Positions 1 to 23,588 of a stretch of DNA of 24,886 bases are shown here, piece by piece; position 1 is the first letter of the stretch, and every line of letters begins with the position of its first letter. A program made the translations under genes and the position numbers. Below the pieces are notes generated by a model. The model made no database searches, was not told where the DNA came from, and was given only the letters and a program-made list of their open reading frames with translations. Origin of the DNA: a virus; IMG/VR virus record IMGVR_UViG_3300007523_000082, positions 1 to 24,886 of that record. One strand, given 5' to 3'.

Positions 1-2105
1 GCTACCAAACAGCCACGAGCTACAGAATATAGAGGATCTTCTGGACGAATAACACTGCCGATTTCAACAGGCATTTCTGCTGATCTCAACAACTTCTCGA
101 ACAACTTGTCAAATCCCGGAGGACTTGCTGTTCCGCCTGCAACAATAATGTCAATCGGCTGTCCGATGCGAGCATTCTTGTCTTTATTTTCTGTAAGACC
201 TTTTTTAATGCCAGAAACTGTTTTTTCTATCATCAACTCATACTGTGTACGAATTGCTCGCTGTACAAGTGTGTCAGGCTCTTTATTCAAATCAATCTTT
301 GTTTTTTCTTTGTTAATGAAAGCTACAGTCTCACCAGCAGCACGAGCCGATTGTTGATCAATCCAGTCTCCAGAATTCACGATGGAGAAACTGAAAACTT
401 CTGCACCGAACAAGGAAAATGCCACATTGACCATACCGGCTCCGCAATTGTGAATTGTTAAATTTGGTCCAGAAAATGAATGATCTCCGGGAACTTGTAA
501 ATCATATACAGCACCTTCATATTCTTCGTGTTCAATAGCTTGGATTCGACCACAACAAAACCCATCTTCAATAAATATTTTTTCTGAAATTTGGCTGTTT
601 TCACAATCCAAATTAGTCATTAAATCTGATAAAGAATATGAAACTTTTTTGCCAGCCGCACTAACAACCCATTCGTTTAATTTTCCAACAATATTTCTTC
701 CATCTTTCAGATGACTAATCCTTGGTTCTCTCCAAGAAACACTAGAAGCAATTCCAATTCTTGAAAATAATTGTTTTGCAAGTAAAATTAATTTTGTATT
801 AGAGTTTCCAAATGTGATCTGACTTTCAGAAATAGTCCCATCAGAACGAACCAATCCACATAAAAGATTCATACATTCTGAATTGGTTAATTTTTCAATT
901 GACCAAGGATAATGTTTTTTCCCAGCAGAATCATAACAATGATTGTTCATCCAATTTGCCAATCCTTTGCTATAACACTTAAGTCTAATCACATTGTCTG
1001 ATTTGTTGATTTCTGTGGAAGATTTATCAAATCTTTTTTGCAATATTTCTTTGGAGTCGTTAACAAATTGTTGTTCTTCAAGTCCAAAATCTATTTGAAT
1101 ACATCCTTCTTCTAAGTTAATGCTTCCATCGCCCATAAAATATCCTAAAAACCTTTGTAGATCAGGAGTTGATTCTATGCGTTTTTTATTCCATTTCTTA
1201 GAACATGTAATTCTTTCACAAATATTCATTGCAGGTCTTGTTGAATTTCTATCTTGTTTAAGTATTGGCTCTCCAACGATATCTCCAATTTCTAGTTCTT
1301 CACAGCCAACCCATGACCAAATTCCATTTCTTTTAACATAAAGTTCATGGTTGTCTACAAACTTATATTCGTCAGTGTTATTTGAATATCCGGCAATTTG
1401 TATCTTTGTCATTGCACCATTAAATTCTTTTGTAATAATATTGCTGATTTCACTCCATTTGCCCATATGTGTGATTACTTTATCCCCAATTTTGACATCT
1501 TGTATTTCTACAATTCCCTTGTCTGTGTATATTTTTGTTCCTGGACACAAACACGAAACGCCAATTCCTGTAAACATTTTATCGGCAAGTTCTGCATAAA
1601 CTAAAGCCATAGCTTCATTAATTGGTCTAGCGTCAACTTTAAAACCTTTTTCACTCTTGAAAGCTTTGAAGATGGATTCCAGAATTTTTCTGTGATAATC
1701 AGCATCTGTGTTTTCGTTAATGGCATTGGCTGGAACAGAATAACATAGAATCTCTCCGTCCTTTTTGATTTCGTCTAAAAGACTATGAATCATAATACTC
1801 ATGATCTGAAATGCGTCACGTTCATGCGGGTTTACGCAACCATCTTTCATTGGTCTCTTTAGATCTACATTTCTCATTGTGTAAGCCATGTTAATGGCTG
1901 CTTCGCCGAGAGCATAAGCCACGTTGGCGTCTTCCCGATGAATTAATGGAACGCCAGATTTCTTCATCATGTTAAAAACAAAGTCATTCTCAAGTTCCAT
2001 TTCAAGAAATGCGTTCACTTCTCTCTTGTAAATGAAATTTCCTTCTGCATTTCTTTTACAGCAAACTAAATTATACGTCCCAGCGTCAAATCCGATTCCG
2101 CTCAT
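1..2105 (-). CDS. Actin-like ATPase interrupted by an intein (3' end outside window)
   Basis: Read from the ATG at 2105 this frame is open to the window edge (about 701 codons). Once the intein (447-1553) is removed, about 332 residues of an actin/ParM/Hsp70-fold ATPase remain. Visible motifs are an N-terminal phosphate-1 loop (GIGFDAGTYN, residues 3-12), a phosphate-2-like loop formed across the splice junction (GVS joined to CGAGMVNV), and a C-terminal adenosine motif (VAGGTASPPGFDKLF) followed by a DP-containing segment ending near ARGCLV. Family knowledge: such proteins form nucleotide-dependent filaments for plasmid segregation or phage positioning, or act as chaperone-like ATPases; which applies here is unknown. 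The start overlaps the stop of the 78-aa gene by 4 bases (ATGA), so translation is probably coupled. The C-terminus lies beyond position 1. Confidence 0.88.
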   Translation of the reverse strand, partial: MSGIGFDAGTYNLVCCKRNAEGNFIYKREVNAFLEMELENDFVFNMMKKSGVPLIHREDANVAYALGEAAINMAYTMRNVDLKRPMKDGCVNPHERDAFQIMSIMIHSLLDEIKKDGEILCYSVPANAINENTDADYHRKILESIFKAFKSEKGFKVDARPINEAMALVYAELADKMFTGIGVSCLCPGTKIYTDKGIVEIQDVKIGDKVITHMGKWSEISNIITKEFNGAMTKIQIAGYSNNTDEYKFVDNHELYVKRNGIWSWVGCEELEIGDIVGEPILKQDRNSTRPAMNICERITCSKKWNKKRIESTPDLQRFLGYFMGDGSINLEEGCIQIDFGLEEQQFVNDSKEILQKRFDKSSTEINKSDNVIRLKCYSKGLANWMNNHCYDSAGKKHYPWSIEKLTNSECMNLLCGLVRSDGTISESQITFGNSNTKLILLAKQLFSRIGIASSVSWREPRISHLKDGRNIVGKLNEWVVSAAGKKVSYSLSDLMTNLDCENSQISEKIFIEDGFCCGRIQAIEHEEYEGAVYDLQVPGDHSFSGPNLTIHNCGAGMVNVAFSLFGAEVFSFSIVNSGDWIDQQSARAAGETVAFINKEKTKIDLNKEPDTLVQRAIRTQYELMIEKTVSGIKKGLTENKDKNARIGQPIDIIVAGGTASPPGFDKLFEKLLRSAEMPVEIGSVIRPEDPLYSVARGCLV
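447..1553 (-). mobile_element. Complete intein with LAGLIDADG (DOD) homing endonuclease
   Basis: The intein is 369 residues with no internal stop. The N-terminal splice motif begins at Cys1 (CLCPGTKIYT), block B is FVDNHELYV (His present, but Val replaces the usual Thr three residues earlier), block F is VYDLQVPGDHSF, and block G is TIHN followed by Cys as the +1 extein residue. The nucleophile set Cys1, terminal His-Asn and Cys+1 is complete, so protein splicing is expected. Between the splicing blocks are two LAGLIDADG helices: FLGYFMGDG (intein residues 135-143) and LLCGLVRSDG (230-239). Both retain the acidic residue, so the endonuclease is probably active and able to home into intein-less alleles. 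The insertion point is the phosphate-binding loop of the host ATPase. Confidence 0.93.
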
Positions 2106-2426: not shown

Positions 2427-3416
2427 TTATTTATCTGTCTTAGAAGACAATTTATCAAATGCAAAAAGTATAGAATTTGCAGTTATTTTAGAACAACATG
2501 GAACTTTTGGTGCTTCTTTAATTTTTGGACATTTGCCCCAATCATAACAGCCAGAATATTTCAATGGACACGGGCCCTGAACTAATTCCACATTTGGATA
2601 ATGCAAAGCATATGTTGGGCCATTAACGAATGTGAAAATTCCAACAACAGGTTTTTTCATTCCTCCTGCTGCATGAAAATGAGATGTATCAACACTTACA
2701 ATAAAATCAGCTTGATTTATTACAGACAACCATTTTCTTAATTTAAGACCATAAATTGTTGGTATATCGTTTTTCAACAATCCGTATATAGGCGTTCCAT
2801 GAAGCCCGGTTACAAAAAATCCACGATCACGAAGACCATTTGTCACCTCAACCATTAATTCGTCTGTTAGATTTTTATTGTGCATAGCTGAAATTGGAGC
2901 CAACACAACGATCTTTCCATTTCTATCTCTGTGTTTTTCTAATATGTCTTTTCCATCTTTATTTTCTTCTTCAGAAATTTGAAAGTGCATTTCATGACTT
3001 GTAAGAGATACTCCACAATGATTTGCCCAGATGTCACTTCTGTGTTTTCCAGACATAGGAGCCATGTTCATCTCCCAACGACCACAAGATGTTGTGGTGT
3101 TATAATGTACAATATAATCATGACAGTTGACAGAGTTTGAATCAAGAATCTTGTCTATAAAAGGATGATCAATTAAAGCGTCATGGTAAATAGCTGGACA
3201 AGAAAAATGAATTTCTACATTTGGCATAAGCTTCTTAAAATCTTCGAACATCATTCTGTGCATCAAAATGTCGCCTAGACCGCCACATCCTCGCTGAATT
3301 AAAACTTTTTTTCTTTTTTTATAAAAATCACGAATTCCAATAGTGGGCTTTGCTTGTTCTGGTCTTTTATAATCGATACGTTGTCGAATAGGTAATTTTG
3401 ATTTTACTACTGGCAT
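2427..3416 (-). CDS. GT9 family glycosyltransferase (heptosyltransferase-like)
   Basis: A 329-aa protein with the two halves of a GT-B glycosyltransferase of family 9. The N-terminal nucleotide-fold start is LIQRGCGGLGDILMHR (about residues 39-54), matching the GGLGD loop of ADP-heptose:LPS heptosyltransferases. The C-terminal donor-site region is FIVSVDTSHFHAAGG (about 238-252), equivalent to the D-T-x-x-x-H-x-A motif. The last 50 residues are Cys-rich (CPLKYSGCYDWGKCPK, then PCC), as often seen in GT9 proteins. Predicted role: transfer of a sugar from an activated nucleotide donor to a glycan or protein acceptor in the infected cell. Lying among virion genes, it may modify phage proteins or host surface glycans (inference). 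It starts about 20 bases past the T-tract of the terminator at 3436-3471 and has no strong Shine-Dalgarno. Confidence 0.82.
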   Translation of the reverse strand: MPVVKSKLPIRQRIDYKRPEQAKPTIGIRDFYKKRKKVLIQRGCGGLGDILMHRMMFEDFKKLMPNVEIHFSCPAIYHDALIDHPFIDKILDSNSVNCHDYIVHYNTTTSCGRWEMNMAPMSGKHRSDIWANHCGVSLTSHEMHFQISEEENKDGKDILEKHRDRNGKIVVLAPISAMHNKNLTDELMVEVTNGLRDRGFFVTGLHGTPIYGLLKNDIPTIYGLKLRKWLSVINQADFIVSVDTSHFHAAGGMKKPVVGIFTFVNGPTYALHYPNVELVQGPCPLKYSGCYDWGKCPKIKEAPKVPCCSKITANSILFAFDKLSSKTDK

Positions 3417-6066: not shown

Positions 6067-6910
6067 TGGGCTCCTCCCCATTAACGAAAAAGTTTAAAGC
6101 ATCCATTTCAGATTTTATATATGAGGCATTAAAATAATCTCCGGCATCAGAATAATCAACAACAGTCACTTCTTTGTCTTTTTGATGTGTTAACCAGTAG
6201 AGATTTGCATCTATAATTTCTTTGGATCGTATGTGTTGAGGATATGTCCACAGTCCGTTCTCAAGCCTTACTGCATAATCACGCTCTCTTTCAAACGACT
6301 CGTCACAGCACATTAACATGAGATTTTCTACCCCAAATTGGTACGCCAATCCTATAGCCGCACAAACAGGATTTCTGTAGTCATCTATAAAGTATTTCTC
6401 GCTATATTCCGCTCCAAATGACTCGTCTGGAGTAGGGGAATAGACATACAAATCATTCTTGTATGACTTCGTGAAATTATAGTTCGTTCTGATTGAAGAA
6501 ACACAAATTGGATAGTAACCATTTTGCTTTGGGAGAAAGTTAGAACATTCTTGATATGGGTTGTTTACCACATAGGCATTGATGGATTTTTTTCCTGTAA
6601 GTTTCCAGTCTTTCAAGGCACCATTGATCGCTAAAACGCAAACATCTGTCGGCATCTTGGCAATAATTTCATGTCTTTTCGCAAAACTATACCCGTCAGA
6701 CACGATGACTATCTTGTTGAATGAAATGACTTCATCAGCAATTTTTGGTCTTATTGAATTTACTTGCTCATTGTGAACAATCAATCCGTAATCTTTTTGA
6801 TCGTATAAATGAGACACAGTGATTGGAGTATTGTTATTTTTCGTGAAATTACGAACCCATGTTCCGCCTCCAAGAATATATTCGTTAGTGAGATGTTTTT
6901 TGACTTTCAT
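6053..6910 (-). CDS. DUF115/Maf-like putative glycosyltransferase-fold protein
   Basis: A 285-aa protein. The region IVIVSDGYSFAKRHEII (about residues 67-83) resembles the Rossmann-like glycine/serine loop of the DUF115 (MptE-like/Maf) family. A later segment NPVCAAIGLAYQFGVENLML followed by CCDESF (about 180-206) matches that family's helix, strand and acidic residue near the active site. Members include Maf flagellin-modifying transferases and related sugar enzymes, so a glycan-related role is likely but not proven. It has no membrane segment. Its ATG lies inside the 3' end of the GIY-YIG gene (26-base overlap) and has its own Shine-Dalgarno (AGGGAAC), consistent with the endonuclease having inserted just upstream of a working gene. 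Confidence 0.66.
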   Translation of the reverse strand: MKVKKHLTNEYILGGGTWVRNFTKNNNTPITVSHLYDQKDYGLIVHNEQVNSIRPKIADEVISFNKIVIVSDGYSFAKRHEIIAKMPTDVCVLAINGALKDWKLTGKKSINAYVVNNPYQECSNFLPKQNGYYPICVSSIRTNYNFTKSYKNDLYVYSPTPDESFGAEYSEKYFIDDYRNPVCAAIGLAYQFGVENLMLMCCDESFERERDYAVRLENGLWTYPQHIRSKEIIDANLYWLTHQKDKEVTVVDYSDAGDYFNASYIKSEMDALNFFVNGEEPNGAK

Positions 6911-7901
6911 TTGTTCCCTGTCTTCCTTTCTTTCTTAATCTTATAGTAGATTTTGGAATATTTGTAATGTTGTGAATCTCTGTTACTGTTTTTTTATCTA
7001 ACAACAAACGATATATTTCTTCTTCTTTTTCTCTTGTTACTTTCTGCAACTTAATTCCTTTGCGAGCATTAGGATTCTTAAACATATCAGTGACGCCATT
7101 TTGATGCAATGCAAAGCGACTTACGCCAATCTCTTTTTCAATATCTTCCCATTTCTTTCCTTCAGCACGCAATATTTCTACCTTGGCAATAACATCTGGC
7201 GTAACAGTCCTATATGTCTCTCTTTTTACTTTGCCGCCATATTTGTTATCTTCAACTATAGTTTCTGTTCTACGAAGTTGCGTCTCACTGACTCCAGTTA
7301 TTTTGCAAATCTCAGCAACAGTATTGTTTTGATCTCTAAGTTCTTGAACTTGTTGCTTAACTTCTTCTGTAAGCTTGATCTCATTTCCTCTGCCTGTATT
7401 GTGATATAAATCATTTTGTTCAAGACATGAATAAACAGCAGATCGTGTGACACCTAATTTGATTGCAATAAAATTTTTGCTTTCTCCCTCATTGAACAAT
7501 TCAATAATTTTTGCATTGGTTCCTGTTGTCCAATAATTTTCAATGTTTTTAGTTTCTATTGTTTTTTTAATTGACTCTTGTGATAAAACTTGTTTTTCGT
7601 CAACAACTCTATTTAAGTTGTAACCATGTTCTCTTTCCCAAGATTTATAATATTCAATCCAATATCCTTCCTTTTCTAGTAACAAAGATATGTTGCATTC
7701 CTCAATCACAATAAATTCAAAATTGTTTTCCCCGTATTTATTCCATGCACTTTGCAGGTGCCTATTAAAATGAATGGAATGCCTTAATTGAACAAGATGG
7801 TTTTGAGACCATCTGTAATATACAGATTTAGAAGATCCAATATATCGCTTATTGTTTGTTTTGTTGATTATGGCATAAATGCCGCTAATGTTTTGTTTCA
7901 T
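6885..7901 (-). CDS. Free-standing GIY-YIG homing endonuclease with tandem HTH units
   Basis: A 338-aa protein from the ATG at 7901 (the frame also opens at a GTG at 7937 directly after the upstream stop). The N-terminal catalytic domain has GIY (residues 7-9), KRYIGSS (18-24), the likely catalytic Arg30 in YYRWSQNHL, and Glu78 in LLLEKEGYWI. The rest contains about four helix-turn-helix-like units, near 130-160, 176-211, 232-270 and 287-327, each with a pattern like GVSETQLRR, GVSRFALHQ or NIPKSTIRL. Role: site-specific nicking or cutting of intron- or gene-less alleles to spread its own gene. It shows no sign of decay. It sits with no gap after the 608-aa tail gene and overlaps the next gene. 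No good Shine-Dalgarno is seen. Confidence 0.88.
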   Translation of the reverse strand: MKQNISGIYAIINKTNNKRYIGSSKSVYYRWSQNHLVQLRHSIHFNRHLQSAWNKYGENNFEFIVIEECNISLLLEKEGYWIEYYKSWEREHGYNLNRVVDEKQVLSQESIKKTIETKNIENYWTTGTNAKIIELFNEGESKNFIAIKLGVTRSAVYSCLEQNDLYHNTGRGNEIKLTEEVKQQVQELRDQNNTVAEICKITGVSETQLRRTETIVEDNKYGGKVKRETYRTVTPDVIAKVEILRAEGKKWEDIEKEIGVSRFALHQNGVTDMFKNPNARKGIKLQKVTREKEEEIYRLLLDKKTVTEIHNITNIPKSTIRLRKKGRQGTNESQKTSH

Positions 7902-7937
7902 ACAAATATCATAGTACGCCTGCGTGAAAAATTGCAC

Positions 7938-14149: not shown

Positions 14150-14749
14150 ATGGGTAAATTAGATTGTGCTTGTGGGTATTTGAGCGGAGCAATGGAAAAC
14201 GTGGCAGATCACGGCGTCGAGTGGAGAAGGAAGTTTGTTAAGCTCATTGCAGAATCTGGTCTTAAAATTGACTTGATCGATCCGACTGATAAGCCGGGCG
14301 GCTATGATATCAAAATCGGAGAAAACAAAGCTTACCAAGAAACACTTCAAAAAGAAGGTCGTTGGGAAGAGCTTCGTCAGTATGTCAAACAATATCGGAG
14401 ATACGATTTAAGGTTTGTGGACATTTCCGATTTTTTGGTTGTTGTTGTAGATACAAAAGTTCCACAATGGGGAACCTCAAATGAGGTTTATACTGCTGAA
14501 CAACAACATAAACCAATGTTTTTCATATGTGATGGTGGTTTGGCAAAATTTCCAAGATGGCTGTTTGATGTTGCAGATCTTGATGATCCTATCAAAAACA
14601 AGAGATGCAATGTGTTTCAGTCTGTAGAAGAAGTCGTTGCAGAACTGGTGTCTTTAGATACTGGAGTGAATCCACTGAGTGATGAATGGGTTTTGGTTAG
14701 AAAGAATCTGGAAATTCAACGTTTAAAAACCATATCGACGCCAATCTAA
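14150..14749 (+). CDS. Nucleoside 2-deoxyribosyltransferase-like protein
   Basis: A 199-aa protein with the layout of the nucleoside 2-deoxyribosyltransferase superfamily. A first strand and loop YLSGAME (residues 10-16) is followed by HGVEWRRKF (21-29); the strand DISDFLVVVVD (91-101) has the expected acidic residues; and WGTSNEVYTAEQQHKPMFFI (107-126) matches the G-T-x-x-E segment with the likely catalytic Glu112. Family activity is transfer or hydrolysis of the deoxyribose-base bond in nucleosides or nucleotides, used in salvage or modified-nucleotide metabolism; the substrate cannot be told. It lies opposite to the tail genes and its last 27 bases overlap the convergent 106-aa gene. It probably belongs to an earlier-expressed metabolic set placed inside the tail block. 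Confidence 0.85.
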   Translation: MGKLDCACGYLSGAMENVADHGVEWRRKFVKLIAESGLKIDLIDPTDKPGGYDIKIGENKAYQETLQKEGRWEELRQYVKQYRRYDLRFVDISDFLVVVVDTKVPQWGTSNEVYTAEQQHKPMFFICDGGLAKFPRWLFDVADLDDPIKNKRCNVFQSVEEVVAELVSLDTGVNPLSDEWVLVRKNLEIQRLKTISTPI

Positions 14750-16983: not shown

Positions 16984-17979
16984 CTATTTTCTTAAGTTAG
17001 ATTGGTTGACCAATCTCGACACTGTGCTTTGATTGATATTTAGTGTTTCTGCAATGTTTTTTTGAGAAACTCCTTGTGAGTTCATGTCAACTACCTGTCG
17101 CTTTTTATCTTTTGTAACTCGTGGTTTTTTAAGCTTTGGTCTACTGAGACCAAGATGACCCCATTGTTCTCCAGATAAAACAGCAGAGATGTTAGATGTT
17201 CCAATTTTCTCTGCTATTTCTTTCTGTAACATGCCTTCATCCCTCATTCTAAATATCTCATGCACCTTATCTTCTGTAAGAATAGATCCAGAATGGTCTT
17301 CTCCTCGATGTGGCTGTTTTGTATATCCGATGGTTTCTGTTTTATACTTGAAGCAATCCCATTCAATATGTGGCTTTATCATATCAATGAAATCAAAGTA
17401 TGAGTTGCGACCAATGTAAATTTTGTATTGTCCTTCTTTTCTACCGCCAGTTTTTTTGTGACTATTTATTCCAATATCTTCTTTAAGTCTATTGATCAAA
17501 AAATCTACTTCATCAACCGTAAAGCTTTGTGTATTTAACTCAATGTTAGCATCTTTTTGGTTATTGCTGCCGTCATCCATGTGCCAAATGCACAATGTAA
17601 GTGGCGTCAGTTTGATGTCTGTAGGAACTATCTTACGTCTTTTGAATCTATGATGATCTGTGCGAGGTACATACCACTTAGATTCAATCTGATTCCAAAT
17701 TTTGTCGCAACGAGAACAAAAAACATATCTATCGAAATGTGACTTTTTGCCATTTGCAACTATTCCAGTAGCTTTGATTGTCATCGGCCTGACAGAACAA
17801 CCAAAACTCAGGAATTCTTTAACATACCAACAAATATAACTGCTTTTGTCGTCTCCTTGGTGATCTCGTTTTGATTGTCCAATCTGTAGTTTCATCATCG
17901 GATCAACGAAATTCGTCCAAATTGTTCCGTCGCCCAAAAGCGATCCTGTAACTATCTGTGTTTGTCTCTCTGTAAGCAT
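16984..17979 (-). CDS. Free-standing LAGLIDADG homing endonuclease with C-terminal HTH
   Basis: A 331-aa protein starting at the ATG at 17979, which has AAAGGAGG five bases upstream; the longer frame to 18027 ignores that site. Two LAGLIDADG-type helices are visible: QIVTGSLLGDGTI (about residues 8-20) and LTLCIWHMDDGSNN (127-140), as in the LAGLIDADG_2 group typical of intron-type endonucleases. A Cys pair (CSRC, about 88-91) sits between them. The last 100 residues carry two helix-turn-helix-like units (EIAEKIGTSNISAVLSG and NIAETLNINQSTVSRLV). It would cut a specific DNA site to copy its own gene. Surrounding genes are intact and separated by only 7 and 55 bases, so it behaves as a free-standing insertion, with no intron seen. 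Confidence 0.88.
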   Translation of the reverse strand: MLTERQTQIVTGSLLGDGTIWTNFVDPMMKLQIGQSKRDHQGDDKSSYICWYVKEFLSFGCSVRPMTIKATGIVANGKKSHFDRYVFCSRCDKIWNQIESKWYVPRTDHHRFKRRKIVPTDIKLTPLTLCIWHMDDGSNNQKDANIELNTQSFTVDEVDFLINRLKEDIGINSHKKTGGRKEGQYKIYIGRNSYFDFIDMIKPHIEWDCFKYKTETIGYTKQPHRGEDHSGSILTEDKVHEIFRMRDEGMLQKEIAEKIGTSNISAVLSGEQWGHLGLSRPKLKKPRVTKDKKRQVVDMNSQGVSQKNIAETLNINQSTVSRLVNQSNLRK

Positions 17980-18034
17980 AATTGCCTCCTTTCGGATATT
18001 TATACCACAAACAAAAAGAATTGGCAACTATTTT

Positions 18035-18505
18035 TCAGATGAAGTTTAAGCGCCAATTGAACGTAATTTGCATGTCTTCTGTTTTGTTAAGATCTGCAAA
18101 TGTAGTCATACTGTATAAATCTCCATTAGCCATTTGTAGAGCCATTTCATTTAATGTGACCCCTACAATCTCATTAAATGATATTACAGACGTTAATATG
18201 ACCTGTGTTGGCATTGAACCATCAACACTGGCGATTACAGGCTTAGAGAGTCTAGTGACTCCAAATAAACCTTCTCGACCAGCATTCACGTATTTTTTAA
18301 CTCCACTCTGAGTTCCGCCATCTCCAAACAACATTCGAGTGATGTAAAATTGATAGCTATCTCCAATTTGATTTGCTAAACTCCTACAAAGAGCACGTCT
18401 TCCTGTCAAAAGAATGGTATTATCGACATTGAATATTTCTTTTTCTCCATCTTTCCATTCTCTAATAATTTCCACATCTCCCAATGCAAATGTATCACTG
18501 TTCAT
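18035..18505 (-). CDS. Baseplate/tail-associated protein
   Basis: A 156-aa protein, family not recognised. Its ATG overlaps the stop of the 1036-aa baseplate gene by 4 bases (ATGA), with GAAGGAG upstream, so it is translationally coupled to a wedge-type gene and is probably assembled with it. Features: an N-terminal strand-rich segment (DVEIIREWKDGEKEIFNVDN), a central Gly-rich part (RMLFGDGGTQSGVKKYVNAG), and a beta-rich C-terminus ending in MQITFNWRLNFI, all consistent with a small all-beta virion protein. The LAGLIDADG gene follows after 55 bases; the wedge operon may have continued directly before that insertion. Confidence 0.78.
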   Translation of the reverse strand: MNSDTFALGDVEIIREWKDGEKEIFNVDNTILLTGRRALCRSLANQIGDSYQFYITRMLFGDGGTQSGVKKYVNAGREGLFGVTRLSKPVIASVDGSMPTQVILTSVISFNEIVGVTLNEMALQMANGDLYSMTTFADLNKTEDMQITFNWRLNFI

Positions 18506-21500
18506 AATGCTACTCCTTCTTCGGTGTTGCCAGATCTTGTTTCAATTGTAAAAGAGACGCCTTCTTCCTGACCTACATTTTCTTGCATCCCTGTTCCGCC
18601 AGCCGACAGTGCAACAATTGCTAAGTTCCCAACTGGATCTGAAATTGTTCTAATTACTGGATCATTTCCATCACGATCTAATTCACTAAATACTGTAAAT
18701 CCCACGTTTACTCCAATTTTTGGAAAATGCACCAAACTATAAGCCACTGTTGTCCCGCCAGAATTAGAAGTCATCCAATATTGATCTCTTCCAGATAATT
18801 TGACTTCTTTTTCATCCCATTCAAGAATTCTAAAGAACTCTTCGTTGATTTTAAACATGTAGTTTTCTTTAAAATTATTATCTTCTAACAAGAGAACGGG
18901 AGGGTTACTTCCATTTTGAATATCAAATTCTGATTCATGATCATCAAATGTAGTTAAATGCAATCCTTTATATCCAAATTGCCCAATTTTCCTATTGGCA
19001 ATTCTTCTTCTTATTTCAACTGTAACCCCAGCCATGTCGCCATCTGTCCAATTTCTTATCCAGAATTCTTGACCAGAAAACGAAACAACTTCATATTCTG
19101 TGCTGTTGTAATATAGGAAGTCTCCAATGTTTACTACTTGATGAATTTCTAAAATACTATCATTGAAGTTAACAATAGCACGTCTTTCTACGGCTAAATT
19201 TGATTCATCTGATTCGTAAATTTCTACATCATTATCGTCAAGTATTTGGTATGTTATATTTGTTGTGTTTGATGTTGGAAGACTTGAATTTCCACTAAGA
19301 ATTAAGGCTCCATTGACTAAATCTTTGATTTCATATGGAGTTAATGAATATGCTGGAATAAGAACTTTCCATGATCCGCCAGTGTAATCTGGGGTATTAT
19401 CTATGTCCCATAATGTCTTTACTCCAAGATCTTCAAACAACACAGTTGAATCTGTAAATTGTAAATAATCATCTTGGTTGATCTGTGTAGAAAAATTGCT
19501 GTAAGTTATATTCGACAAATTGAATGTAAATTGACTTTCATTTAAAGGCTCATTAACGGCAGATGATACATTTGCTGTTCTTCCGTCCAAATTTGAAATT
19601 GTATATGTTCCAGCATTCGGAGAAGGAGAAAGAACTTCCAAAACGTGATATTGCAACATCACGCCAGTATCCTGAAGAATAACGTCTGGAGTTACAATTG
19701 AAACATATTCATTTATAGCTGTGCCTAACTTTCCAGACAGAACTGTCATTTGATCAGCCAGTGTTTCTCTATCAACATACCATTCTGAATTGATGTGTCT
19801 TGTAAATATTGGATTAGACTCTCCAGATAAATGATTTTCAATTCTGTTAATATGAACTAAAAAATCAATTGCTTCTGTTGGCGGATGAACGAATTCACTA
19901 ACTTCACCAGTGAAACTGATTGTTTGCAATACGGAATGAAAAGGCATAAATTCTTTAAGAACATCTTGAGCTTCAAGCATTCTGTCATTGCAAAGTTCTT
20001 CAACGCCAATATCAACGCTGTAGCTGCTGCCAATACAAGATCCACAAGGATCAATGAATTTTTTGTCTATGTTACATACATCATACGATGGTCTTGTGCT
20101 GCCATTGTACTCTTCCATGTTGTAAATGTTTTCAGAGTATGCAAACTCAGTTCTAATAAATCCAAACACCAAAGGATCAGCAAATGGATGTTTTACTGGG
20201 ACCAATACAGAAAACAAAGGATCTTTTTCATCAATAATCCTGACATTCCAATTCTTGGGCGGAAACTCTTGATTGGCTTCATCTCTGTTGTCTAGTAAAG
20301 GTAAATCTCTGAGATAGTTTTCTAATTGTTGTTCTGATGGGTTTGGTATTTCTTTGTATTTGTAAAGAACACGAATTATATCTCCTTCAAATATATCAAC
20401 AGGGGCAGAAGACAATTCGTCTCCAATCCATGTCATTGTTATTTTTTCATTACACTCTTCATCTTCTTCAAATCTAACATAATCTAATGAATATTCTGTG
20501 TAGTTACTTTCATTATCTCTTCTAACCCAAACACTAAAATTATTTTCATCGATCGGCAAAACAATTGTTTGTTTGTCCAATATAAATGTTGGACTGGATT
20601 CGACTTTAAAAGATTCCTGCCAAGTGTATTTTGATGTTATTTGCCAATGTTGCGTAATTGAATTTAACGACATTCCTGACTGAGCGAAGGCGTCTGACAA
20701 TGCTCCAATCGTCCCTTTTCTCTTAAACAAAGGAATCGCTTCTTTTATTTGTCTTCTCCACAATGTCGGGTCATCTGACTTCAAACGTAGATCAAACAAA
20801 TTAGACAAATACATCAATAAAGATTCGTGTATTGCATTTGAATCATACAAATCAATGATTTGATTGGCGAAATTTTCCAGAATTGTAAATCCACTTCCAA
20901 CCGCTTGATTTAATCTTTGTGTTGTTTGAGGGGTTAAATCATTATCTGTAAGAAATGTTTTATACATTTCTGGCAAATACTTTTCGAGCAAAGTGTTATA
21001 TTTTCCCTCTGGTGCAGCATGAGTTGGAATAGAAATGGCTGCTCTTGGATCTCCCACAATATTGAATGGTGTATGTGATGTTAGTTTTGATCCAGCAGGA
21101 TTTGGAGTCCAAGTCCAGCATAAGAAATAATTTCCTTCTCTAATGCTTCCGTTGGCATCCCATTCAAACTCAAATTGACCTTCAATCAGATCACCATCTT
21201 TATCAACAGATTGAAAAAATTGAGAGTTATCTAAATCTGTAGAAAGCCAAGCTGGATATGTTGGAGTTCCAATTACTTCAACAGCACGTCTATCTTTGTA
21301 GTAATACGGCATAATCATTGAACTGGAAGATAATTCTTTTTGAAGCTTTTCTACTTTTGAAAGATTTTCTGGCGTTGGGTCTAAACAAGCTACAGCTACA
21401 GCTTTATCTAAAGCGTCACGTATGGTTTGATTTTGGATTTTATAGTCATATTCCCCCCAATTTGTTCCAATAAAATTTCTCTCGACATAATACACAGTTG

Positions 21501-21612
21501 CTGAATCAATCTTATACGGAGTATCAAAACATCCATTCGTATCCGTGGTTTGTATCTTTAGCAAGATCGTATCTGTTGTTCTGGGGTTGTCTGTGAAATT
21601 TTTTAGCGTCAT
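18502..21612 (-). CDS. Large baseplate wedge protein, tail-protein-I/gp7-like
   Basis: A 1036-aa protein. Residues about 205-310 match the phage tail protein I pattern (P2 gpI and related T4 gp7-type wedge parts): KYLPEMYKTFLTDNDLTPQ, a helix LENFANQIIDLYDSNAI, then NLFDLRLKSDDPTLWRRQIK and the ending LFKRKGTIGALSDAF. The preceding 200 residues and the very long C-terminal part are mostly beta-type segments, with a Cys/Gly-rich insert near SCIGSSYSVDIG and later VRRRIANRK-like strands. P2 gpI is only about 180 residues, so this is a greatly extended form, probably supporting a larger baseplate. It starts 2 bases after the gp6/J-like stop and overlaps the next gene, placing it centrally in the wedge operon. 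Confidence 0.87.
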   Translation of the reverse strand: MTLKNFTDNPRTTDTILLKIQTTDTNGCFDTPYKIDSATVYYVERNFIGTNWGEYDYKIQNQTIRDALDKAVAVACLDPTPENLSKVEKLQKELSSSSMIMPYYYKDRRAVEVIGTPTYPAWLSTDLDNSQFFQSVDKDGDLIEGQFEFEWDANGSIREGNYFLCWTWTPNPAGSKLTSHTPFNIVGDPRAAISIPTHAAPEGKYNTLLEKYLPEMYKTFLTDNDLTPQTTQRLNQAVGSGFTILENFANQIIDLYDSNAIHESLLMYLSNLFDLRLKSDDPTLWRRQIKEAIPLFKRKGTIGALSDAFAQSGMSLNSITQHWQITSKYTWQESFKVESSPTFILDKQTIVLPIDENNFSVWVRRDNESNYTEYSLDYVRFEEDEECNEKITMTWIGDELSSAPVDIFEGDIIRVLYKYKEIPNPSEQQLENYLRDLPLLDNRDEANQEFPPKNWNVRIIDEKDPLFSVLVPVKHPFADPLVFGFIRTEFAYSENIYNMEEYNGSTRPSYDVCNIDKKFIDPCGSCIGSSYSVDIGVEELCNDRMLEAQDVLKEFMPFHSVLQTISFTGEVSEFVHPPTEAIDFLVHINRIENHLSGESNPIFTRHINSEWYVDRETLADQMTVLSGKLGTAINEYVSIVTPDVILQDTGVMLQYHVLEVLSPSPNAGTYTISNLDGRTANVSSAVNEPLNESQFTFNLSNITYSNFSTQINQDDYLQFTDSTVLFEDLGVKTLWDIDNTPDYTGGSWKVLIPAYSLTPYEIKDLVNGALILSGNSSLPTSNTTNITYQILDDNDVEIYESDESNLAVERRAIVNFNDSILEIHQVVNIGDFLYYNSTEYEVVSFSGQEFWIRNWTDGDMAGVTVEIRRRIANRKIGQFGYKGLHLTTFDDHESEFDIQNGSNPPVLLLEDNNFKENYMFKINEEFFRILEWDEKEVKLSGRDQYWMTSNSGGTTVAYSLVHFPKIGVNVGFTVFSELDRDGNDPVIRTISDPVGNLAIVALSAGGTGMQENVGQEEGVSFTIETRSGNTEEGVAL

Positions 21613-21614
21613 AA

Positions 21615-23171
21615 TTACTCGTAAATGAAGTTGATGTCGATTGATCCGGGTCTAACTATTTCAAAGAATCTTGCTGTAACTATTTCTCCAGAATTCGATT
21701 CATTGTCAGTGACAAAGTTTGTTTCTGTTCCTTTGATTTCTTTGATATCAGCCAGTTCCTTTATCATATCCGATGATTTCAAGTCTTGACCATAATCCCA
21801 TTTATTCAATGAGAAGAATGTGTTTATTTTAAGATTGATTCTCTCTTTGATTTCATCTTCAAACTTTCTGTAGAACTTATCAACCAATACATCCAATGCA
21901 ACATCAACTATAATTACAACTCCATCCCTGATACAAACATGATCTGTAATCATTTTCTTTGATTGAAGTTCTTCTGATAAAGCATTTTTTAATTGGCTGT
22001 TTGCTTCAATTAAGTCTTCTGGTGCGTCTAATGCTAAAATGTATAGATCAATGACATTGGCAGCACATCCATATTGTCTTAAAACTGCTTTTGATTTTCC
22101 AATCTTACCTTGAAACTCTGTAGTAAATTGATTGCTCACTGTTTCATAATCATCACCAGTGACAGCACGATTCTGAGTTCTTAACCAACTTGGAAGCTTT
22201 CTTTTAATGTCTTCAAGAGTATCTCCGGAATACCCGAATTCACCTCTGGTGTAATTTTTGAATGTAACAGTTGATCTAAAGTTGAACCCCGGAACTAAGA
22301 AATTTCTCTGAAACTCAATTGATCCGGTCACTATATTTCCAGATGTTCCACCTCCAACTCTGTGCGTTACAGTTATTGAAGAACCATCAGAAGGTATCAT
22401 TCCAGCTCTGTTGTTTCCAAATATTATAAAAGCACTATAATCTGAATCATATTCTACTCTGAATTCACGTCTCGGTTGTGAATCTGTAAAATAACTAACT
22501 GGAATCCAAGGCATTCCATCAACATAAACATTAACAGAATTCCAAATTACAGGATTAGAGCTTATTCGATATGATTGATTCGTTTCACCAGATCCAGCAA
22601 GTTGCTGAGAAATGGTTCTGCCTTCTAAGCCAACTAAATTTGTATTTATGAATTGTCCCGCACTAATGAAAATAGGATCATAAAATCTTGGATTGTTTTC
22701 TGAATCTGCGGCGAACAATTCAATTGTTTTTGGACCTTCGCTAGTTGAAAAATCAACCAACACAGGAGTTGGAATAACCAGATCTGTTTCTAGTAAATTA
22801 TTAATCGTTGCCGACCAAAATGATCTTGCTCCGACTGGAGGCTGTGGTCTAAATCCAACAAGAGTCGAAAGTCTGAATGCGTTGTCAACCTCCGTTACCG
22901 TGTCTATGAATATTTCATTTGCAATCTGGTCGATCTTAAACGACATTGTATCTGCAATGAATGCCCAATTTTCTATGAGCATTACAGCTAAATCAGATTC
23001 TACAAAGTCATTGAAGTTATCAGAAAATCGCTCTTTAATAAAATCAACTAATCTAGCTTTCATAGACCAGAAGTCTTGATTAGTGTAATTTACATTTGTT
23101 AATTTTGGCGTTTTGATTAAACTTGAAATGTCATAAGGTGTAACATCAAATGGGCAATTTGCATAATTCAT
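21615..23171 (-). CDS. Baseplate wedge protein, gp6/J-like
   Basis: A 518-aa protein of the baseplate J/gp6 family, which forms the ring joining wedges around the hub of contractile tails. Diagnostic parts: the N-terminal helical region with SDLAVMLIENWAFIADTMSF (about 59-78), the middle beta region with FGNNRAGMIPSDG (251-263), and the near-invariant NRAVTGDDYETV (334-345) that starts the C-terminal J domain. The C-terminus continues with the expected strand-helix repeats (IIVDVALDVLVDKFYRKFED). Length fits J/gp6 proteins. The start codon immediately follows the gp25-like stop (TAA then ATG) with GGGGGA as ribosome site. Confidence 0.95.
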   Translation of the reverse strand: MNYANCPFDVTPYDISSLIKTPKLTNVNYTNQDFWSMKARLVDFIKERFSDNFNDFVESDLAVMLIENWAFIADTMSFKIDQIANEIFIDTVTEVDNAFRLSTLVGFRPQPPVGARSFWSATINNLLETDLVIPTPVLVDFSTSEGPKTIELFAADSENNPRFYDPIFISAGQFINTNLVGLEGRTISQQLAGSGETNQSYRISSNPVIWNSVNVYVDGMPWIPVSYFTDSQPRREFRVEYDSDYSAFIIFGNNRAGMIPSDGSSITVTHRVGGGTSGNIVTGSIEFQRNFLVPGFNFRSTVTFKNYTRGEFGYSGDTLEDIKRKLPSWLRTQNRAVTGDDYETVSNQFTTEFQGKIGKSKAVLRQYGCAANVIDLYILALDAPEDLIEANSQLKNALSEELQSKKMITDHVCIRDGVVIIVDVALDVLVDKFYRKFEDEIKERINLKINTFFSLNKWDYGQDLKSSDMIKELADIKEIKGTETNFVTDNESNSGEIVTARFFEIVRPGSIDINFIYE

Positions 23172-23588
23172 TTATCCCCCGAGTGGTAACTGTAATACAA
23201 GAGACTCTACCTGCGATATATTATCAGGATCAACAAATGATATCTTGATCCCCAGTATATTTTCAATCTCATCTCCTTGATCATCTTTATTAAGATCTTC
23301 ACGATTAAATTTTGAAGTGACTGATATATCAGAAATCACAATACGTGGTTCCCATTTTGTAATTGAGTCTGCAATCATTTGTTTTGCAATTATCTCTAAA
23401 GAAGAATCATTCTGTTCAAAAATCAATTTTCTTAAAGGAGTTCCAAAATCCGGCAACATACACCTTTCTCCCGGATTTGTCAAAAGAAGCTGCAATAAAT
23501 CTGCTTTGATTTGGTCTACACCATTATTTTGTGCCAATAAACCTCTAGTTGTTTTTACTAATGGATATTGTAATCCAAGAAATTTCAT
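23172..23588 (-). CDS. Baseplate wedge protein, gp25-like
   Basis: A 138-aa protein of the gp25/W (GPW_gp25) family. The hallmark is NPGERCMLPDFGTPLRKLIF (38-57), the highly conserved ER...PDFG...L segment that sits at the sheath-initiating wedge in contractile tails and related injection systems. The length is close to T4 gp25, and C-terminal strands (GIKISFVDPD, SLVLQLPLGG) complete the small alpha/beta fold. An AAAGGAAAAC ribosome site precedes the ATG. It lies between the gp5-like and gp6/J-like genes, the usual neighbours in contractile-tail clusters. The family is lysozyme-like in older names but is not expected to be catalytic. Confidence 0.95.
   Translation of the reverse strand: MKFLGLQYPLVKTTRGLLAQNNGVDQIKADLLQLLLTNPGERCMLPDFGTPLRKLIFEQNDSSLEIIAKQMIADSITKWEPRIVISDISVTSKFNREDLNKDDQGDEIENILGIKISFVDPDNISQVESLVLQLPLGG

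Follow-up and report, generated by a model that had tools for sequence, protein, structure and literature searches.

The actin-like gene at the left edge of the window (the whole stretch of 24,886 bases analysed here, an IMG/VR virus record and probably a fragment) very probably encodes a large tailed phage's Volactin-like actin-fold protein, interrupted in its phosphate-2 loop by a mobile class-1 intein that bears a LAGLIDADG homing endonuclease, self-splices and homes. The phage is considered tailed because of the baseplate and tail genes at 18502-23588 (-), and large because related contigs reach 234 kb among intein carriers and 595 kb among intein-free relatives. Comparisons between related sequences demonstrate an exact in-frame insertion, kept nucleophiles, empty sites and recent horizontal spread, and make it very likely that splicing restores the loop.

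The host ORF occupies 3-2105 (-), 701 codons, and leaves the window at its left edge with no in-window stop. In relatives the stop lies about 8 codons past this contig end, meaning that very little of the gene is missing. The N-extein (residues 1-184) is encoded at 1554-2105 (-), with an ATG at 2103-2105, and its residues 4-184 match the Pfam profile PF25216 (Volactin). The C-extein, encoded at 3-446 (-), starts at Cys+1 (444-446). Once joined (332 residues), the exteins match Volactin with an E-value of 3.5e-66 over profile positions 3-319, compared to 3.8e-59 with the flanks split by the intein, and their score of 224 bits is above the curated cut-off of 35. The extein is a member of the Pfam Volactin family, PF25216. 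A Glycosyltransferase-9 (heptosyltransferase-like) gene, at 2427-3416 (-), adjoins the actin-like gene, and a gene of the same family is found at the same place in L005.

As the extein profile found no match when PDB sequences were searched by HMM, folds were compared instead. An AlphaFold model was obtained for L004, an intein-free relative 91% identical to the window's extein (31 sequences, pLDDT 81, pTM 0.82). It superimposed on the MamK filament with a Z score of 25.9 (3.2 A over 295 residues), on crenactin with 23.9 and on MreB with 23.0. A profile comparison of the extein with MreB gave a probability of 94%, and a Foldseek search of viral models retrieved mainly Hsp70-like and some actin-related proteins. 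The model thus predicts an actin fold for the extein, and the earlier note's description of the host as a phage actin-like protein holds on both the Volactin match and the MamK- and MreB-like model.

The intein itself spans 447-1553 (-), residues 185-553, and the earlier note had its coordinates exactly right: 369 aa from Cys1 to Asn369, followed by Cys+1. The insert scores 43.6 bits against LAGLIDADG_3 (PF14528; Pfam cut-off 22.5), and falls slightly under the cut-offs for Intein_splicing (33.9 for 35.8) and Hint_2 (27.4 for 28.4), both of which are exceeded by its relatives. In a family of 15 aligned members, the first nucleophile Cys1 (1551-1553) is unchanged in all 15 and the C-terminal cleavage residues His368-Asn369 (447-452) are invariant; block-B His69 and a block F (VYDLxVxxDHSF) with its Asp are also present. 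Both LAGLIDADG helices had been described as intact, in agreement with the PF14528 score and with the two motifs, LQRFLGYFMGDGS with catalytic-type Asp142 (1122-1160) and LLCGLVRSDGT with Asp238 (834-866), whose Asp residues are kept in all full-length members. An Rfam scan of the window found no intron or other RNA, so that nothing suggests an endonuclease carried by an intron. The intein profile had a single weak match among PDB sequences, PI-PkoII (E 7e-4), and a search of a plasmid collection yielded a weak partial match only. An AlphaFold model of the intein alone (five sequences) reached a pLDDT of 50 and was set aside.

One departure from the canonical pattern had been overlooked. The claim that all splicing residues are intact stands for Cys1, His-Asn and Cys+1, but not for block B, where Val-Asp-Asn-His (residues 66-69, 1347-1358) occupies the place of the expected TxxH. 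Val66 replaces the Thr, as it does in 15/15 aligned family members; in four other phage inteins this position is Thr or Ser. The block-B Thr is an assisting and highly conserved residue, not a nucleophile, which helps to strain the first scissile bond (PMC10663303). Its replacement could slow the first splicing step. The missing Thr, together with the Intein_splicing score slightly under the cut-off, would also fit a dead insertion, in which splicing is lost and the actin-like gene of these phages inactive. We find this very improbable, given that all 15 members, widely divergent as they are, keep Cys1, the block-B His, the Asn and block F unchanged, with Cys+1 always present. Non-synonymous change is moreover low compared to saturated synonymous sites, in intein and extein alike, and the flanking extein remains conserved. 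The constancy of all other splicing residues rather argues for an intein that splices with Val at block B.

Empty sites are abundant. Searching IMG/VR with the extein gave 51 encoding loci, 45 of which are uninterrupted; two stop at contig edges (L048 and L054), and four carry the intein (L049, L050, L052 and L053). At least 45 homologous loci, L004 among them, therefore read straight through the junction, and homologues devoid of the insert join smoothly at GVS-CGAGM, as the earlier note's reading implied. A scan for the junction pattern found 42 uninterrupted stretches, partly on the same contigs as the other loci, and none of the 39 examined has an intein. A chance match is excluded, since both flanks match Volactin, the insert matches LAGLIDADG_3 and at least 45 loci are uninterrupted. 

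Further carriers were found by searching with the intein and with its end motifs. The same intein occupies the same position in 19 other viral contigs and in one bacterial MAG contig, and in all 17 contigs with the C-terminal intein motif it interrupts an actin-like protein at the same Ser-Cys junction. Carrier exteins go down to ~30% identity, and the intein-free members of one distant group are ~31% identical to the window's extein. In L075 (L075:371-1867) the endonuclease has been cleanly removed in frame, leaving 163 aa with the splicing blocks intact, a natural mini-intein useful as a minimal splicing domain. On the MAG contig (L061, RXKI01000042.1), binned as Neisseriaceae, the same intein lies within an actin-like gene. 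This contig may be a provirus, or a phage contig that was binned wrongly; its neighbouring ORFs gave no telling phage match.

Two lines of evidence speak for mobility. Mapping intein carriers on the extein tree required 7 changes, versus a mean of 7.5 for shuffled labels, a scatter close to random. The second line comes from L049 and L050, found in one sample, whose inteins were compared over the first 114 nt only: these are identical at 114/114 nt, compared to 431/546 nt for the exteins. The window differs from each of them at 1/114 intein nt, and at 57 (L049) and 105 (L050) of 546 extein nt. Extein synonymous differences between the window and L050 amount to 0.76, near saturation, versus 0 in 38 intein codons. 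The contig ends of L049 and L050 share exactly 123 identical bases, and those of L073 and L076 an overlap of exactly 127; we take such exact end overlaps to be breaks of the assembly graph at sequence common to several genomes. Carriers are found alongside empty relatives in samples 3300042197 and 3300035698. Contig L048 stops 4 nt short of the intein, which was weighed as a sign of a mixed population, and is suggestive only.

The trees are less clear-cut. The exteins group L052 and L053 as sisters, a relation that the intein data reject (p-AU 0.036), and a test of clade W/L052/L053/L055 on the intein data was not significant (p-AU 0.155). The deep intein and extein trees partly agree, which points to some vertical descent as well. 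Because of this partial agreement and of the p-AU of 0.155, transfer is argued here mainly from the scatter of carriers and from the L049/L050 pair. Taken together, the comparisons show recent spread by copying, the outcome expected of an active homing endonuclease, and describe a mobile class-1 intein family that has spread recently and is specialised on a single conserved loop.

The location of this loop was deduced from MreB. The intein is inserted in-frame between S184 and C185 of the ORF, and the segment GVSCGAGMVNVAF...NSGDWID aligns gap-free with VVDIGGGTTEVAV...IGGDRFD of E. coli MreB, so that S184-C185 falls on D-I of the MreB motif VVDIGGGTT. This places the site in the phosphate-2 loop, just past the position of the MreB Asp, and in the L004 model it lies at a strand-turn-strand (180-185, 188-195). 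The earlier placement of the intein in the phosphate-2 loop is thus borne out by the alignment as well as by the comparison of the model with MamK and MreB. Nucleotide binding by this loop is inferred from the fold and the motif. Across the aligned exteins, position 184 is Ser in 44/44 rows, with Gly at 186 and 188. All 44 relatives therefore have Ser in place of the phosphate-2 Asp of MreB (window 444-446 and 1554-1556), and for this reason the ATPase chemistry of this phage actin-like family may be altered. The +1 residue is Cys in 24/42 rows, the rest being mostly Phe, and is Cys in every intein carrier. Inteins of this type require a nucleophile at +1, so relatives with Phe, Tyr or Trp at this position should be refractory to it.

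The mechanism that we propose is the following. The precursor would be translated whole, and Cys1 would attack the bond after Ser184; Cys+1 would then take over the N-extein and Asn369 cyclise, joining S184 to C185 in an intact GVS-CGAGM loop. In co-infected cells, the endonuclease would cut the intein-free alleles of other phages, and repair would copy the intein in. Phage inteins are usually inserted in active or ligand-binding sites. A conserved ligand-binding loop would offer a target present in many phages, where imprecise loss is costly. Given the site, no proper nucleotide pocket is expected in the unspliced protein, which should be non-functional until the intein is excised. Most inteins in active sites share this need for splicing to make the loop whole.

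The earlier note had gone further, seeing in splicing a switch for filament formation. With most relatives devoid of the intein and carriers scattered at random, no conserved regulatory role is indicated, and closely related phages manage without the intein, making a switch unneeded. In a regulated version, conditional splicing, depending on redox, metal or infection stage, would set the timing of nucleotide binding and polymerisation. The site in the phosphate-2 loop, the presence of Val instead of Thr in block B across the family, the Cys that one subgroup has at intein position 3 and the conditional splicing known in other inteins (PMC10663303) are compatible with it. We nevertheless hold it to be unlikely, in view of the intein-free relatives, some of them close, of the random scatter, and of the fast splicing of all five mycobacteriophage terminase inteins tested (PMC5050341). 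Equally doubtful is the related proposal that a loop-specialised intein family with block-B Val has a slow or conditional first step, delaying actin-like filament assembly in infection. The simplest reading, and the preferred one, remains a parasitic element that self-splices after translation and homes between phages infecting the same cell.

Two other homing endonuclease genes were seen in the window. One, at 6885-7937 (-), encodes a GIY-YIG enzyme with HTH repeats; it also looks mobile, because in the syntenic L049 its place is taken by a different short stretch. The other, at 16984-18027 (-), is a free-standing LAGLIDADG_2 gene with C-terminal HTH motifs, located among tail-region genes, and brings the homing endonucleases in these 25 kb to three, each of a different kind. 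The putative gene at 14150-14749 (+), with a weak nucleoside 2-deoxyribosyltransferase match, is one of few plausible genes on the plus strand of a module that runs on the minus strand.

The earlier note knew of no common example of an intein in a phage actin-like protein, and the literature searched likewise gave no paper on an intein in any actin-like protein; most subscription papers lie outside that literature, and absence is no proof. The element is of a well-known kind, in a new host protein and at a new insertion site. As far as the searched literature shows, the actin fold is thereby added to the nucleotide-binding folds invaded by inteins. Phages carrying this site present the states of the homing cycle, namely empty, freshly invaded, full-length and endonuclease-deleted, and lend themselves readily to asking whether the timing of filament assembly in phages is set by that of splicing. 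The family-wide Val at block B is a natural test of intein splicing without that Thr.

Volactin makes dynamic filaments in vivo in Haloferax volcanii (PMC10869688). The extein belongs by profile score to the same PF25216 family; unlike volactin, it is phage-encoded and, in some phages, intein-bearing. AlpC of prophage CGP3, which aids viral DNA replication (PMC4446434), is likewise actin-like and phage-encoded; unlike the window's protein, phage actin-like proteins such as AlpC have no reported intein in the literature searched. Among inteins, the nearest full-length database matches, aligned over the whole length of the window's intein, are those of the Eggerthella phage LE2-3 portal and the crAss-like phage cr118_1 terminase, which differ by their ~24% identity, their host genes and their canonical block-B Thr. 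The closest parallel in site is with mycobacteriophage TerL, whose inteins lie in the terminase P-loop (PMC5050341): these, too, are class-1 LAGLIDADG inteins that interrupt the nucleotide-binding site of a phage NTPase, occur sporadically and have spread horizontally. The present family differs from them in its host, an actin-fold protein rather than a P-loop ATPase, and in its family-wide block-B Val.
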